From a virus: 35,655 nucleotides of DNA. Positions within the stretch are counted from its first letter, which is position 1. Every line of letters begins with the position of its first letter. Positions 18,485 through 24,166 of the stretch are shown piece after piece. A program made the position numbers and the translations under genes. Location of the stretch: IMG/VR virus record IMGVR_UViG_3300007735_000666, positions 1-35,655 of that record. The stretch is one strand, 5' to 3'. The notes beneath the pieces were generated by a model. That model worked only from the letters and a program-made list of their open reading frames with translations. It did no database searches and was not told where the DNA came from.

Positions 18485-18970
18485 ATGACACTTATAACAA
18501 CAGCCGAAGAGCTGGCTGAGGCAATCATCAGCGACCCCGAGCGGGTGGCGGCGTGTTTGGGCAGAATCAACCGATTCGGCGGGCAGGTGCCACACTGCAC
18601 TGTCTTGAGGCACAGCCTGCACGTCTTCGAGCGGATTGACGCGGACGTTGATTCATCAGACGCGGCAAGATTGTGGGCACTGCTGCACGACTGCCACGAG
18701 ATATTGACGGGGGACGTGGTCCGCCCCTACGTCAATGCACGGTTGCGGATGGATCAGTCGGCGATTGATGCGGTGATTGTGCGGCGGTTGCCGTTGCTGG
18801 TTCCGCAGCCTGAGAGCATGAGTTGGGAGTCCGTGGCTGCAGCCGATCGGGCGGTGGGTGAATGGGAGATGCTGGAAATCCGACAGGGCAAGGCCCCCTA
18901 TTTCCTGTATCAGTTTCCGGCGAAGTCGTGGGCGGATTTGGTCCGGGAATTGATCGGGGGTGCAGCGTGA
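18485..18970 (+). CDS. HD-domain phosphohydrolase
   Basis: A 161-residue protein with the HD-superfamily metal-binding pattern: a His in VLRHSLHV (about residue 43), the HD pair in ALLHDCHEILTGDVVRP (His68, Asp69, followed by His71 and Glu72) and a late Asp in AAADRAVGEWE (about residue 121). The HE-x-x-TGD-x-x-P form is typical of the YfbR-like group, which removes phosphate from deoxynucleoside monophosphates, so a role in nucleotide metabolism during infection is plausible. The substrate is inferred from family resemblance only. Confidence 0.85.
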   Translation: MTLITTAEELAEAIISDPERVAACLGRINRFGGQVPHCTVLRHSLHVFERIDADVDSSDAARLWALLHDCHEILTGDVVRPYVNARLRMDQSAIDAVIVRRLPLLVPQPESMSWESVAAADRAVGEWEMLEIRQGKAPYFLYQFPAKSWADLVRELIGGAA

Positions 18971-19790: not shown

Positions 19791-20014
19791 CACCCTATTT
19801 TCAGCAGGACGGCGTCACGCGCGGCGTGTGGCGTGGCAAGCCCTGCGAAGTCGTGGGATTTCAGGACATCACAACCAGCACGGGGGAGCGGAAAGCGTGC
19901 GCAGAAATCAAACTGATCGGCATTCCACTGCATCAGGGGTGGCGGCTGGTCGATGCGGCGGACCTTTGTTCCGAGAAACATCACTTGACACAACGTGTCA
20001 AGCCGATAGACTGA
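19787..20014 (+). CDS. Hypothetical small protein with an embedded promoter
   Basis: A 75-residue protein read from a GTG overlapping the previous stop. It has a compact beta-type pattern (GVWRGKPCEVVGFQDI, then EIKLIGIPLHQGWRLVDAADL). No family recognised. Its last ten codons contain the promoter and inverted repeat described at 19985, so coding and regulatory signals overlap. Confidence 0.6.
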   Translation: MTPYFQQDGVTRGVWRGKPCEVVGFQDITTSTGERKACAEIKLIGIPLHQGWRLVDAADLCSEKHHLTQRVKPID

Positions 20015-20040
20015 ATGGCGGCAGCGTGTGGTGCGTTGCC
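19985..20040 (+). promoter_or_regulatory. Promoter P4 with operator-like palindrome and 5' hairpin
   Basis: TTGACA (19985-19990), a 16-base spacer and TAGACT (20007-20012); P2 has the same -10. The spacer ends in GCCGA. TTGACAC and GTGTCAA form a palindrome around AAC that covers the -35, like an operator. The predicted transcript start is near 20019. GGCAGCG (20020-20026) can pair with CGTTGCC (20034-20040), so this transcript would also begin with a hairpin. The TGAGGG loop is not conserved here. Confidence 0.55.
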
Positions 20041-20065: not shown

Positions 20066-21364
20066 ATGCGAGCGTATAGCGATACGGTCGACGTGTACGA
20101 CGCGGCGATTGATCGGATTAAATTCATTTTCGACAACTTCCCGCGTATTTATGTGTCGTTCTCGGGTGGCAAAGACAGCGGCGTGATGCTCAATCTGATG
20201 ATTGATTACATGCGAAAGCATGGCATCACACGCAAAATTGGCGTGATGATTCTGGACAATGAAGCCAACTACGAGCATTCATTGACCTTTATGCGAGACG
20301 TGCTCGACGCAAACCTCGATTTGCTCGACGTCTACTGGTGCTGCTTGCCGATTACGCTGCCGTGCACAGTGAGCAGCTACGCAGTAGAGTGGCAGTGCTG
20401 GGGCAATCGCGACAAAGAGCGGTGGATTCGTCCCATGCCGCAGCAGTCGTATGTGGTCAACTTCGAAAACTGTCCGTTTGATTTTTTTCGGGAGGATATG
20501 TCATACGATGAGTTCTGGGATCAGTTCGGCGATTGGTACGCGCAGGGCCAGCGGTGCGCGTGCCTGATTGGTATCCGGACGGTTGAAAGCCTTAATCGGT
20601 TTCGCGCAATCATGAACCGCGAAAAGGTGATGCTGGACGGGCAAATTTGGACAAAGCAGAACACCGATTACGTGTTCAATTGCTATCCAATTTATGACTG
20701 GCGGACAGAAGACATCTGGACGGCAAACGCCAAGTTTGGATGGAAGTACAATTCTTTGTACGACATTTTTTATATGGCTGGTGTGCCAGTGCACAAAATG
20801 CGTGTCGCGTCACCATTCATGAGCGAAAGCAAAAGCAGCTTGGGTCTGTATCGGGTCATTGATGGTCACACGTGGGCACGGCTGTGCGCTCGTGTGCAGG
20901 GAGCCAACTTCATTGCAACGTATGGCAAGCAGTTGGGGTACAGGTCGTTCAAGCTGCCTCCGGGGCACACGTGGAAGTCGTTCACGAAGTTTCTGCTGGA
21001 CACGTTGCCAAAGGAGGTGAGTGAAAATTTTAGGATGCGGTTCCGTCAGTCTCTGCAATACTGGGGAACCGTGGGGCGAGGAGTGCCGGACAACATCATC
21101 GCAGAACTGAAGGAACACGGAATTCCGTTCACAACGAACGGGCTGACGCGGCACGGTGGGCAAACACTCACCCGCGTTGTGATTCGCAAAGTGCCGGATC
21201 ATTTGGATATGTTGAGTTGCAACAACGCGATGGTCACAAGCTGGAAGCGGTTTGCAATCACAATCCTGAAGAATGACCACACCTGCAAATATATGGGGTT
21301 GGCACCGACACGAGAGCAGGCGTTGCGGCAGCGTGAAATCATGGAAAAGTACAAGAATCTTTAA
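20066..21364 (+). CDS. IbrA-like PP-loop / PAPS-reductase-family protein with DUF3440 C-terminus
   Basis: A 432-residue protein with the PP-loop SGGKDSGVML at residues 33-42, which binds ATP and forms an adenylated intermediate in PAPS reductases, DndC and related enzymes. Other IbrA-type features are CACLIGIRTVESLNRF near the middle and CYPIYDWRTEDIW further on. A C-terminal DUF3440-type motif reads SWKRFAITILKNDHTCKYMG. IbrA with IbrB is known from E. coli as an activator of prophage-encoded eib genes. The start at 20066 has GGAGGG upstream; an ATG at 20015 would lie before the predicted transcript start. It heads a cassette whose use of A and T looks higher than in its neighbours. Confidence 0.88.
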   Translation: MRAYSDTVDVYDAAIDRIKFIFDNFPRIYVSFSGGKDSGVMLNLMIDYMRKHGITRKIGVMILDNEANYEHSLTFMRDVLDANLDLLDVYWCCLPITLPCTVSSYAVEWQCWGNRDKERWIRPMPQQSYVVNFENCPFDFFREDMSYDEFWDQFGDWYAQGQRCACLIGIRTVESLNRFRAIMNREKVMLDGQIWTKQNTDYVFNCYPIYDWRTEDIWTANAKFGWKYNSLYDIFYMAGVPVHKMRVASPFMSESKSSLGLYRVIDGHTWARLCARVQGANFIATYGKQLGYRSFKLPPGHTWKSFTKFLLDTLPKEVSENFRMRFRQSLQYWGTVGRGVPDNIIAELKEHGIPFTTNGLTRHGGQTLTRVVIRKVPDHLDMLSCNNAMVTSWKRFAITILKNDHTCKYMGLAPTREQALRQREIMEKYKNL

Positions 21365-21375
21365 GGGGGTGCGAC

Positions 21376-21768
21376 ATGAAGGTTATCAGTCCAAACGACA
21401 TCATCGGAACAGAACGCGAAGTTCATTGCCCGCATGGCGGGTTCGTGAGCCTGCGCTATTTGCTGGCAAAAGACGGGATGGGTTTCAGTCTGCACGAAAC
21501 CCGCATTCCGTGCGGCGACCGGCAACACTGGCACTACAAGCATCATTTTGAGGCGTGCTTCTGCATCGCAGGACGTGGTGTCCTGCGGAATGAAGAGACA
21601 GGCGAAGACTTCGTAATCACGCCGGGCGTGTGCTACGTGCTCGACAATCACGACGATCATTCATTCGTTGCAGAAACGGACGTTGTTTTGATTTCCGTGT
21701 TCAATCCTCCAGTGACGGGCACTGAGGTGCACGGCGCAGATGGCAGTTATGCAAAGGCAGGTGCGTGA
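21376..21768 (+). CDS. Ectoine synthase (EctC)-like cupin
   Basis: A 130-residue protein, the size of EctC, with the family pattern along its full length: GTEREV at 11-16, KDGMGFSLHET at 32-42, HYKHHFEACFCI at 53-64, CYVLDNHDDH at 86-95 and VFNPPVTGTEVH at 108-119. EctC closes the ring of N-gamma-acetyl-diaminobutyrate to make ectoine. By memory of EctC structures, the iron ligands Glu57, Tyr85 and His93 correspond here to Glu59, Tyr87 and His95 with identical spacing. Substrate-contact residues correspond to Arg27, Thr42, Tyr54, His57 and Glu117; one Trp is replaced by Phe23. No EctA or EctB gene is present in the window, so the real substrate may differ. AGGGGG precedes the ATG. Confidence 0.88.
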   Translation: MKVISPNDIIGTEREVHCPHGGFVSLRYLLAKDGMGFSLHETRIPCGDRQHWHYKHHFEACFCIAGRGVLRNEETGEDFVITPGVCYVLDNHDDHSFVAETDVVLISVFNPPVTGTEVHGADGSYAKAGA

Positions 21769-22325
21769 TGAGTGAGTGGAAATCACCAGTATACAATGTG
21801 TTGGCTGTGCACATCGACAAGATTCAGGCCAACACGTACAACCCGAATGCTGTCGCCCCTCCAGAAATGGAGCTGCTTGAAACGTCAATTTGGGAAGACG
21901 GCTACACGCAGCCCGTAGTCACCTACTATGACGCGGCGCAGGACGTGTACATCGTTGTGGACGGGTTCCACCGATATCTCACGCTGAAGCGGTCAAAACG
22001 CATCTACGACCGCGAAAAGGGCATGTTGCCGATCGTCGTGATTGACAAGGAAATGGGCGACCGCATGGCGTCCACAATTCGGCACAATCGTGCACGAGGA
22101 AGCCACAATATCGAATTGATGAGTTCGATTGTGGCTGAACTGGTCGAGATGGGGAAGTCAGATCGGTGGATCTGCAAACACATCGGAATGAGTGCCGACG
22201 AACTGCTGCGACTGAAGCAAATCACTGGCGTGGCTGCGCTGTTCGTGAACCGCGAGTTTTCGAAGTCGTGGGACTACGATGAAACCGCAGGTCGTTTCGA
22301 GGATAGCGACGACGATGAAACGTGA
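21768..22325 (+). CDS. IbrB / ParB-like protein
   Basis: A 185-residue protein with a ParB/sulfiredoxin-type nucleotide-binding domain: NTYNPN near residue 25, VVDGFHRYLTL near 64-74 (the DG-x-HR motif of this superfamily) and IRHNRARGSHNIE near 104-116. A helix-turn-helix segment follows (KSDRWICKHIGMSADELLRLKQI). IbrB is the usual partner of IbrA, and here only the EctC-like gene separates them. The ATG at 21768 overlaps the previous stop (TGATG). The C-terminal tail is acidic. Its biochemical role in phages is not settled; regulation or nucleic-acid modification are both possible. Confidence 0.85.
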   Translation: MSEWKSPVYNVLAVHIDKIQANTYNPNAVAPPEMELLETSIWEDGYTQPVVTYYDAAQDVYIVVDGFHRYLTLKRSKRIYDREKGMLPIVVIDKEMGDRMASTIRHNRARGSHNIELMSSIVAELVEMGKSDRWICKHIGMSADELLRLKQITGVAALFVNREFSKSWDYDETAGRFEDSDDDET

Positions 22326-22740
22326 GTTTCGCGCGTGGACGAAATGGGAATGTTTTCCCGCTGGTTTCTATGCAGCCGCAGGGCCAGCGGGAAAGTCTCA
22401 TGAAGATTGCGAACAGGCGTATGTCAACATACTCGGAAATGCTGACTGGTTTCGCGTGGCTGCGTTTCGAGTGATGAATGAATGGCCTAATTCGTGTGCG
22501 CATTTCTTGACGAACGAACACATCAACCGCGTTGCGTGGCTGGGGCAGGCTGCCGTCTGCATTATGTCAGGCGTTCCAAGTCGTTACAAATACGCATTTT
22601 TGTTGCTGACGCCAGAAAAACAGGAGTCTGCAAATGAGGTGGCGCGGCGAGCAATTTACTGGTGGGAAAACAACAGGCGAGCGGGTGCGTCGTTATTTGG
22701 AGATATGGGAAGCGAGGGACTACAAGACCGGGATTCCTGA
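22315..22740 (+). CDS. Unrecognised protein of the IbrA-EctC-IbrB cassette
   Basis: A 141-residue protein (starts MKREFRAWTKWECFPAG) overlapping the IbrB stop by 11 bases. It is rich in aromatic residues and Cys and looks like a compact helical domain: CEQAYVNILGNADWFRVAAFRVMNEW, cut here only for description, followed by NRVAWLGQAAVCIMSGVPS and a second helix bundle. I do not recognise the family with confidence. The position within the cassette and the coupled start make a joint function with its neighbours likely. Its last 107 bases overlap the next reading frame. Confidence 0.75.
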   Translation: MKREFRAWTKWECFPAGFYAAAGPAGKSHEDCEQAYVNILGNADWFRVAAFRVMNEWPNSCAHFLTNEHINRVAWLGQAAVCIMSGVPSRYKYAFLLLTPEKQESANEVARRAIYWWENNRRAGASLFGDMGSEGLQDRDS

Positions 22741-22948
22741 CGAAGTACCGGCAGAACTAGCGGCGGCAAATTTGGCACCGTCATGGAAATCCATAGCCTG
22801 CGCGATTCTGCGGAATGACGTGCTGCTGTTGAGCCTTGGATTTGCTCCAGTCGTGTCCAAGCATTACGAACAAATCAAACGGCACGAAATTAGCCAGCGG
22901 TGCAATCATCGTTCACCGAACAGACTACGCCAGAAACTCCTATTCTGA
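22634..22948 (+). CDS. Free-standing DUF3440-like domain
   Basis: A 104-residue protein in a different frame from the gene it overlaps by 107 bases. Its centre repeats the C-terminal motif of the IbrA-like protein: here APSWKSIACAILRND then LGFAP, there TSWKRFAITILKND then MGLAP, at the same spacing. Upstream it has GIPDEVPAELAAANL, which precedes this motif in other IbrA proteins as I know them. It is therefore a separately encoded copy of the IbrA C-terminal domain. The first residues (MRWRGEQFTGGKTTGE) may or may not be translated; an internal start is possible. Confidence 0.7.
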   Translation: MRWRGEQFTGGKTTGERVRRYLEIWEARDYKTGIPDEVPAELAAANLAPSWKSIACAILRNDVLLLSLGFAPVVSKHYEQIKRHEISQRCNHRSPNRLRQKLLF

Positions 22949-22957
22949 AAGTACATT

Positions 22958-24166
22958 ATGACCAGTCCCCACATTCTCTGCATTATGTCCCACTACACTG
23001 ACCCGGTGTTGTCTCTGAGGCGTCTTGAAATCAGCCGGGCAACACTGCTGCCGTCATTGGCAGCACAGACCCGAAAGCCCACACTGCACATTGTGGTGAG
23101 CCAGAATGACCCGCACCTGCAGGAACGGCTGGCAGGCTATGCTGGCACGGGCTGCGACTGCGTGGTCCTGTATCGGGACACATGGCGGCTGTACGGGGAG
23201 AATTGGCAGATCCCGGAAGGGCATTGCATCATCGGGCGTGTTGACGATGACGACGTTCTGCGGTCGGACTTCTGCGCTGTCGTGTATCACTGCGGGATGG
23301 TGCACAAAGAACGGGCGATTATCTGGCCTGTTGGGCTGGTGTATTGGCGTGGGCAGATGTTTCGCCTGGAGCATCGCGGGAATCAGTATCTGACGCTGAG
23401 CACGTCGAGGGGCATTGACCCGCACCACAAGGCACACGCGGTGATTCAACGGGAGTGGCGAAGTGTGCGAGCATCGTTGGAGCCTGGCTGGATCTGGGTA
23501 CGGCATGGGGATGCTGAGACCAGCACACTGCCGAAGTACAGGGCGACTGCTGCAGGTGCGTGGCAGTCAGACAAGTGGCCGGTGGATCTGGCGGCGGTCG
23601 ATGCAGCCATTGCCCCCAGCGGCGTTCCGTCTGCCGACTATCGCGAGCACGGGAAGCGAGCGCGAGGAATGCGCGTCAGTCAGTGGCTGTCGGTGTATGG
23701 ATCGGACAAGGTGAGCGTGCACAATTACGGGTCATTCTATGACGATTTATTTGCCCGACTGAAACCGCAGGCACTGCTGGAGATCGGGGTGTATCGTGGG
23801 GCGTCTCTGAGGGCGTGGCGGGCGGCTGGAGTGGCGAAGACGATCGGTGTGGACAGCGACCCGGCAACGGCGGCGCAGGGCCTGCATGTGCTGCTGGCGA
23901 CTATGCCGGGGCAGGCGTATGCAGTGGCGGAGCGTGTTGGGTTGCTTGACATCATCATTGACGACGGTTCCCACCTTTACCCGGATTACGTTGCAACGGC
24001 AGACGTGTTGTTTGATCAGCTGAGACCCGGCGGCGTGTACGTCATTGAGGACATCCAGACGCAGGACAGTGTGGACGCGCTGAGGCGGGATGGGTGGACC
24101 ATGGAAGACTGGCGGGAGTCCACTGGGCGTTACGATGATGTCATTGCGTGGAGGGTCAGGGAATGA
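22958..24166 (+). CDS. Glycosyltransferase-like / SAM-methyltransferase fusion
   Basis: A 402-residue, two-domain protein. Residues 1-200 resemble small glycosyltransferases: LPSLAAQTRKPTLHIVVSQND near the start and an acidic DDDD (96-99) in the place of a metal- and nucleotide-sugar-binding DxD. Residues 240-402 are a class I S-adenosyl-methionine methyltransferase: motif I LLEIGVYRGAS (about 273), DIIIDDGSHLYPD (about 331), and LRPGGVYVIEDI (about 355). This combination usually adds and methylates sugars on a cell-surface or phage target. It could modify host receptors, phage tail proteins or DNA. It is the first gene after the IbrA-EctC cassette, ten bases beyond it. Confidence 0.85.
   Translation: MTSPHILCIMSHYTDPVLSLRRLEISRATLLPSLAAQTRKPTLHIVVSQNDPHLQERLAGYAGTGCDCVVLYRDTWRLYGENWQIPEGHCIIGRVDDDDVLRSDFCAVVYHCGMVHKERAIIWPVGLVYWRGQMFRLEHRGNQYLTLSTSRGIDPHHKAHAVIQREWRSVRASLEPGWIWVRHGDAETSTLPKYRATAAGAWQSDKWPVDLAAVDAAIAPSGVPSADYREHGKRARGMRVSQWLSVYGSDKVSVHNYGSFYDDLFARLKPQALLEIGVYRGASLRAWRAAGVAKTIGVDSDPATAAQGLHVLLATMPGQAYAVAERVGLLDIIIDDGSHLYPDYVATADVLFDQLRPGGVYVIEDIQTQDSVDALRRDGWTMEDWRESTGRYDDVIAWRVRE

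Follow-up and report, generated by a model that had tools for sequence, protein, structure and literature searches.

Why would a tailed phage carry a homologue of EctC, an ectoine synthase to our knowledge known only from stress-solute biosynthesis, and why would this gene be packed tightly between homologues of IbrA and IbrB? This question is raised by a cassette of five co-directional genes at positions 20066-22948 of the IMG/VR record IMGVR_UViG_3300007735_000666 (positions 1 to 35,655, the whole 35.7 kb stretch of 35,655 nt that was analysed, hereinafter the window). The genes, which are 11 bp apart or overlap, encode, in this order, an IbrA-like PP-loop ATP pyrophosphatase, an EctC-family cupin, an IbrB/ParB-like protein and the products of what we denote gene 4 and gene 5, with the coordinates at which the initial annotation of this DNA had placed them. 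What EctC proteins do when they are encoded away from ect clusters is recognised as an unsettled matter (PMC5924519, PMC6344544). Comparison of the loci described below shows a virus-specific operon whose five products would work as one pathway.

The unity of the cassette is attested by reciprocal linkage. Among the 80 viral loci recovered with an EctC alignment as bait, ibrA is present in 77, parB in 79, gene 4 in 77 and gene 5 in 75, every absent gene falling on a contig that ends there, and in 37 of 79 loci a single open frame encodes both EctC and ParB. The reverse scan, with the cassette-type IbrA as the sole bait, also comprised 80 viral loci, in which EctC accompanies IbrA in 78 cases, or 79 when a diverged copy is counted, the last locus having a 1-Cys peroxiredoxin instead. 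The usual order is ibrA-ectC-parB-gene4-gene5; it is permuted in several ways, with all five genes still present. The initial annotation made the idea of a cassette depend on finding the neighbourhood in other genomes, and many viruses do carry the five-gene set, including Mycobacterium phages Gaia and Nebkiss, Pseudoalteromonas phage XCL1123 and the viral contigs that encode close EctC relatives (L001-L004). Purifying selection acts strongly on each of the five genes: the median ratio of nonsynonymous to synonymous substitution rates (dN/dS) for close pairs is 0.04 for ibrA, 0.055 for ectC, 0.04 for parB, 0.12 for gene 4 and 0.08 for gene 5. A chance neighbourhood is ruled out by the reciprocal linkage and the dN/dS values, and, judging from these comparisons, the five genes almost certainly represent a conserved functional unit.

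Could the cassette have been taken over as a whole from bacteria or plasmids? No cassette genes were detected near EctC in the best 80 of 372 bacterial loci from 84,980 genomes (about 10 kb scanned for each), and two drawn bacterial samples, of 397 and 399 genomes, yielded no cassette-type IbrA, only ordinary IbrA-family matches of at most 332 bits, compared to 800-900 for the cassette type. Most of the plasmid EctC matches bear the annotation of an ordinary ectoine synthase. On the strength of the best bacterial EctC loci, the genome samples and the plasmid annotations, such an origin of the full cassette was rejected and, at this sampling, the cassette looks virus-specific. In phylogenetic trees, the viral EctCs form one group, apart from the bacterial ect-cluster EctCs and the sampled orphan EctCs (support 100/100), and the cassette IbrAs form a clade of their own (support 100) beside the proteins of phages that have IbrA/IbrB only. 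Given that each of these groups is single, it is probable that EctC entered the IbrA/ParB system on one occasion and has been retained since.

So what kind of enzyme is the viral EctC? The window protein (21376..21768, plus strand) belongs to the EctC family by profile (PF06339, 1.9e-44, 151.4 bits with a cut-off of 27), PDB match and tree, and scores 150.9 bits with the NCBIfam ectoine synthase model PRK13290, above the cut-off of 128, just under which several other viral EctCs fall; assignment to a non-EctC cupin family is ruled out by the profile and the PDB match. The metal ligands recognized in the initial annotation, E57, Y84 and H92, are all present (residues are numbered and mapped by the P. 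lautus EctC structure; PMC6344544) and are invariant throughout the 72 viral and 76 bacterial EctC sequences compared. In the viral set, S23, R25, T40 and Y52 are also invariant, and F106 is kept in 71 of the 72. Position 21 is Trp in 74 of the 76 bacterial sequences and never in the viral ones, which have Phe (54, the window protein among them), a gap (17) or Met (1); nor does any of the viral sequences have a Trp at another position before S23. Furthermore, position 38, a carboxylate contact, is mostly Thr in viral EctCs, in place of Asn or His. In P. lautus EctC, Trp21 stacks on the substrate and is required for activity, of which the W21A variant retains 9.7%, and this residue has been reported as fully conserved among 437 ect-cluster EctCs (PMC6344544). 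The residue pattern is that expected of an active cyclodehydratase with an altered substrate, and it appears very probable that the viral EctC is an active EctC-type enzyme. No EctB was found near the viral EctC genes. A faecal 'Bacteriophage sp.' sequence with an ordinary ectB-ectC pair (L009; MT835761.1, 12296-18907) looks bacterial rather than phage and was discounted as a candidate EctB-containing phage, being treated as a piece of a bacterial ect cluster.

An additional hint at the chemistry comes from two cassettes in which a homologue of EctD, the ectoine hydroxylase, is encoded between ibrA and ectC (L090:4123-4998 and L098:4147-4995). The L090 protein matches the solved EctD structure 3EMR over its full length (8.8e-77), and the two proteins are 33% identical to each other and approximately 30-46% identical to bacterial EctDs adjoining ectC. 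Compared with the established hydroxylase, the signature motif is nearly intact, with the WHSDFETWH core preserved and Trp rather than Phe in the first position, and the scores, 285.0 and 173.2 bits, respectively, are below the TIGR02408 equivalog cut-off of 336.5; the low scores together with the Phe to Trp replacement point to a ligand that is ectoine-like, not identical to ectoine. A scan of 2.9 million viral contigs found EctD only in these two loci, although such a pattern-based scan may miss others. In two further loci, a 1-Cys peroxiredoxin either takes the place of EctC (L273:3865-4611) or follows a strongly diverged EctC with a PF06339 score of 32.6 bits (L267:5516-6175) and, inasmuch as the cassette ParB belongs to the ParB/sulfiredoxin superfamily, this might reflect a redox or sulfur link. 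Elsewhere (L007:5890-6264, L097, L136 and L157), the cassette is split by GIY-YIG-type open reading frames (ORFs) in the fashion of homing endonucleases.

The window IbrA (20066..21364, plus strand, 432 amino acids, with an alternative in-frame ATG at 20015) combines the phosphoadenosine phosphosulfate (PAPS) reductase fold (PF01507, PAPS_reduct, 1.5e-9, 38.6 bits) with DUF3440 (PF11922, 4.8e-58, 196 bits). The SGGKDS motif of the PP-loop is found in all 40 aligned homologues and the catalytic motif of PAPS reductase (CysH), ECG[IL]H, in none of the 40; the cysteines C93 and C407 are conserved almost without exception (47/50 and 49/50, respectively). The AlphaFold2 model (predicted local distance difference test score, pLDDT, 84) is nearest to CysH, the ATP sulfurylase subunit CysD and the PAPS domain of flavin adenine dinucleotide synthase, with TilS/MesJ, NcsA and TtuA also among the fold matches. 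Nearest folds such as those of CysD and flavin adenine dinucleotide synthase belong to adenylyl- or sulfate-activating enzymes, which speaks of adenylyl chemistry.

The ParB-like protein (21768..22325, plus strand; alternative GTG at 21765), the gene for which overlaps the EctC stop codon, is of the ParB/sulfiredoxin type with a DGFHR motif, and matches phrog_2159 'ParB-like' (6.5e-78, 263.6 bits) while scoring 20.7 bits with ParB_N, below the cut-off of 26.3. Gene 4 (approximately 22315..22740, plus strand, the start being inferred from alignment) was initially annotated as unrecognised and stays so, given that no family match was obtained in Pfam, PHROG, NCBIfam or PADLOC; the product is a predicted six-helix protein (pLDDT 93), and its model gave no fold match in the PDB and a single match to a viral structure with no named function. 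Gene 5 (22634..22948, plus strand; start uncertain, ATG at 22634 or GTG at 22685), taken in the same annotation for a lone DUF3440-type domain, does weakly match the C-terminus of DUF3440 (16.5 bits), and its domain is the C-terminal part of IbrA in units of the order parB-gene4-ibrA. Such units are common: gene 4 is present in at least 580 viral contigs, among the matches listed, and the best 80 of these (L010-L089) nearly always show this arrangement, which is also found in the isolated Microcystis phage Mwe-JY13 and Pseudomonas phage Amjad_SA. In a third architecture, IbrA-IbrB without gene 4, the pair is encoded by Escherichia coli phage PhiR5_2 and by Streptococcus, Lactobacillus and Fusobacterium phages. 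Thus, within a large family of IbrA-ParB units in phages, the EctC cassette forms a branch with a specialised substrate.

The genomic surroundings provide some indication of where such a branch operates. No further partner gene was found to be universal in the cassette flanks; the genes most often present nearby encode, on the downstream side, a DEAD/ResIII helicase (24 of 82 loci) and, on the upstream side, exonucleases of the YqaJ or PD-(D/E)XK type (in clusters of 18 and 13 loci). Helicase genes also adjoin ibrA/ibrB in phages of Streptococcus, Fusobacterium and Pseudomonas. This places the cassette in a DNA recombination/replication module, albeit not universally. In certain Streptococcus and Fusobacterium phages, a SNF2-type or annotated DNA helicase is encoded directly beside IbrA/IbrB (L250:1273-2508, L259:1339-2508 and L257:4656-5852), a proximity also seen for many EctC cassettes.

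A scenario that brings the five products together can be outlined as follows. The EctC-family enzyme would catalyse metal-assisted cyclodehydration of an N-acyl diamino-acid-like or amide substrate, related to N-gamma-acetyl-diaminobutyrate and probably not identical to it, to give an ectoine-like cyclic amidine, a type of product that we consider probable; in some phages, the EctD homologue would hydroxylate the ring. IbrA would then use adenylation to activate the ring compound at its carboxylate or else the acceptor, and we give even chances to the coupling of the ectoine-like product to this activation. The ParB-like protein, often fused to EctC, would act together with the products of gene 4 and gene 5 to deliver the activated group, with phage nucleic acid that is undergoing replication and recombination as the most likely target, so as to yield a hypermodified base or nucleotide that protects the phage DNA. 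This is the weakest step, and nucleic acid is accordingly named as the target with some reserve, as somewhat less than an even prospect; DNA is favoured because of the ParB-type partner, the recombination/replication neighbourhood and the Dnd and Dpd precedents. The entire route, from EctC through IbrA activation to delivery to phage nucleic acid by ParB, gene 4 and gene 5, is similarly tentative. The chemistry foreseen in the initial annotation, namely activation and cyclisation of an amino-acid-like substrate or modification of nucleic acid, is compatible with all these results. The most specific version, in which an ectoine- or hydroxyectoine-like amidine is attached to phage DNA and the wider IbrA-ParB-gene 4 family uses other substituents in a broad class of similar systems, is doubtful; it would amount to a novel type of DNA hypermodification.

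Several considerations weigh against this pathway. Some IbrA/IbrB pairs come with neither EctC nor gene 4, and a role in DNA modification must hold for these pairs too; moreover, database annotation names IbrA and IbrB as co-activators for the expression of prophage genes (PMC8813620). The helicase and exonuclease neighbours are not universal and are absent beside the window cassette. No class III aminotransferase of the EctB type was found in ten cassette-bearing virus records, so the precursor would have to be supplied by the host or be unlike that of bacteria. With Trp21 lost, the reaction itself could be another one, and the modified nucleotide as the end point is reached by inference.

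What, then, are the alternatives? The annotation as co-activators, along with the operator-like palindrome at the start of the cassette, fits a regulatory system in which gene expression is controlled by the IbrA/IbrB-type proteins, for which EctC produces or senses an effector of low molecular weight. The intact ATP motif of IbrA, a conserved PP-loop enzyme, is not required for pure regulation, and two or three enzymes seldom stay together under permuted gene order in regulatory modules, so that we consider this possibility rather unlikely. Modification of tRNA or protein instead of DNA, for example, by a PP-loop tRNA-modifying or anti-defence set that employs an ectoine-like group, would be in line with the common involvement of PP-loop enzymes in tRNA modification and with the TilS/MesJ, NcsA and TtuA fold matches of IbrA; the ParB-like partner and the recombination/replication neighbours point rather to DNA, no tRNA genes were found in the window, and this explanation seems unlikely as well. 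Another view would regard EctC, with or without EctD, as the product of an auxiliary metabolic gene that raises the host level of the osmoprotectants ectoine or hydroxyectoine, IbrA and ParB being mere neighbours. The conserved catalytic core of the viral EctC, the EctD genes in two cassettes and the possibility that solitary EctCs still make ectoine (PMC5924519) are all compatible with this view. Yet the viral EctC essentially never occurs without the other four cassette products, its fusion to ParB is frequent, EctB was not found in the ten viruses, and the Trp21 that is conserved in the 437 ect-cluster EctCs (PMC6344544) is always lost, all of which makes the osmolyte explanation quite unlikely.

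Sulfur or redox chemistry of the DndC/DndB type, with a phosphorothioate-like outcome and a cupin acting on a sulfur compound, is brought to mind by the weak match of IbrA to DndC (1.7e-6), by the two nearly invariant cysteines and by the 1-Cys peroxiredoxin beside IbrA in two cassettes, in one of which it replaces EctC. Considering that the DndC equivalog score is a mere 19.9 bits against a cut-off of 290.4, that the EctC active site is of the cyclodehydratase type and that EctD occurs as a partner, we hold this to be decidedly improbable. Finally, gene 4, gene 5 and EctC might be non-catalytic scaffolds on an IbrAB core, as the lack of a catalytic-looking family for gene 4 and the fusion of EctC to ParB could suggest; three metal ligands and most of the substrate residues that are invariant in 72 viral EctCs leave this last explanation highly improbable. 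Delivery of an activated, EctC-derived group to phage nucleic acid is, for us, the preferred if tentative reading.

The window itself represents a tailed phage genome, with genes for the terminase, portal, major head protein and tape measure upstream of the cassette and a DnaB-like helicase gene downstream. The A/T-richer composition that had been taken as a sign of an acquired unit is borne out: the GC content of the cassette is 52.5% compared to 58.6% in the rest of the window, in which all other stretches of equal length have at least 56.6%. As for the cassette's own promoter, also proposed in the initial annotation, a promoter-like TTGACA-16-TAGACT site (19985-20012, plus strand; feature 19983..20012) is located upstream, and its -35-like hexamer is overlapped by a perfect palindrome, TTGACACAACGTGTCAA (19983-20003), which is present in a single copy in the window, suggestive of a possible operator/promoter; but promoter-like sites around the cassette are not above chance (3 found vs 2.1 expected). 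Among the other window genes, the one downstream at 22958-24166 encodes a protein that weakly resembles glycosyltransferases in its N-terminal half and is a methyltransferase in its C-terminal half (PF13578, 3.3e-7), and 18485-18970 encodes an HD-domain protein similar to deoxynucleoside 5'-monophosphate phosphatases (phrog_318, 9.6e-12), a group that is sometimes tied to phage nucleotide remodelling.

The significance of these observations is as follows. The orphan EctC gains a defined context, that is, a viral family almost never found without four partner genes, one of them fused to it in many cases, and sometimes with EctD, for which the loss of Trp21 predicts a different substrate; IbrA and IbrB, widespread phage genes, gain a chemical handle through the link to EctC; and attachment of the product to DNA, if true, would represent a base modification of a novel type. 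With Gaia, Nebkiss and XCL1123 available as isolates on laboratory hosts, M. smegmatis mc2 155 for the first two and P. marina for the third, the function is experimentally accessible.

How does the cassette compare with known systems? With ectoine synthase (EC 4.2.1.108) and the orphan EctCs it shares PF06339, the metal site and the catalytic core, whereas it differs in the lack of the ectA/ectB context, the uniform loss of Trp21 (72/72 viral) and the separate clade. With IbrA/IbrB it has in common the same two families, adjacent and co-oriented, the cassette IbrA aligning end to end with phage IbrA proteins at approximately 32-43% identity; EctC, gene 4, a separate gene 5 and an IbrA clade of its own are what the cassette adds. 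The DNA modification systems DndC/DndB and DpdB resemble it in that an enzyme of the PP-loop or PAPS-reductase-like type is partnered by a member of the ParB superfamily (PMC12839542), although neither DndD/E nor a tRNA-guanine transglycosylase was recognised beside the cassette, the DndC score is far under the cut-off, and PADLOC detected no Dnd proteins among the window ORFs scanned. A link to the Mycobacteroides abscessus EctC 'group 1' and to prophage prophiGD21-3, which combines a cupin with a PAPS reductase (PMC8092301, PMC5924519), is only suggestive, and a search of the phage collection with the Gaia EctC yielded no record of this kind. The initial annotation had regarded EctC between IbrA and IbrB as undescribed, and no paper on the function of the cassette in Gaia, Nebkiss or XCL1123, or of the five-gene system, was found in the open-licence literature; the fusion, however, is already named in the GenBank entries of Gaia and XCL1123, as 'ectoine synthase/ParB multidomain protein' without a function. 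The five-gene system, its near-obligate linkage, the loss of Trp21 and the link to EctD appear to be undescribed. Among the closest known counterparts are these phages themselves: Gaia and Nebkiss (gp103-gp104) and XCL1123 carry the same cassette, with an IbrA that is 64-67% identical and with both gene 4 and gene 5, but the Gaia and Nebkiss cassettes have EctC and ParB as one fusion protein and an inserted GIY-YIG gene, whereas XCL1123, like the window, encodes EctC and ParB as separate genes.

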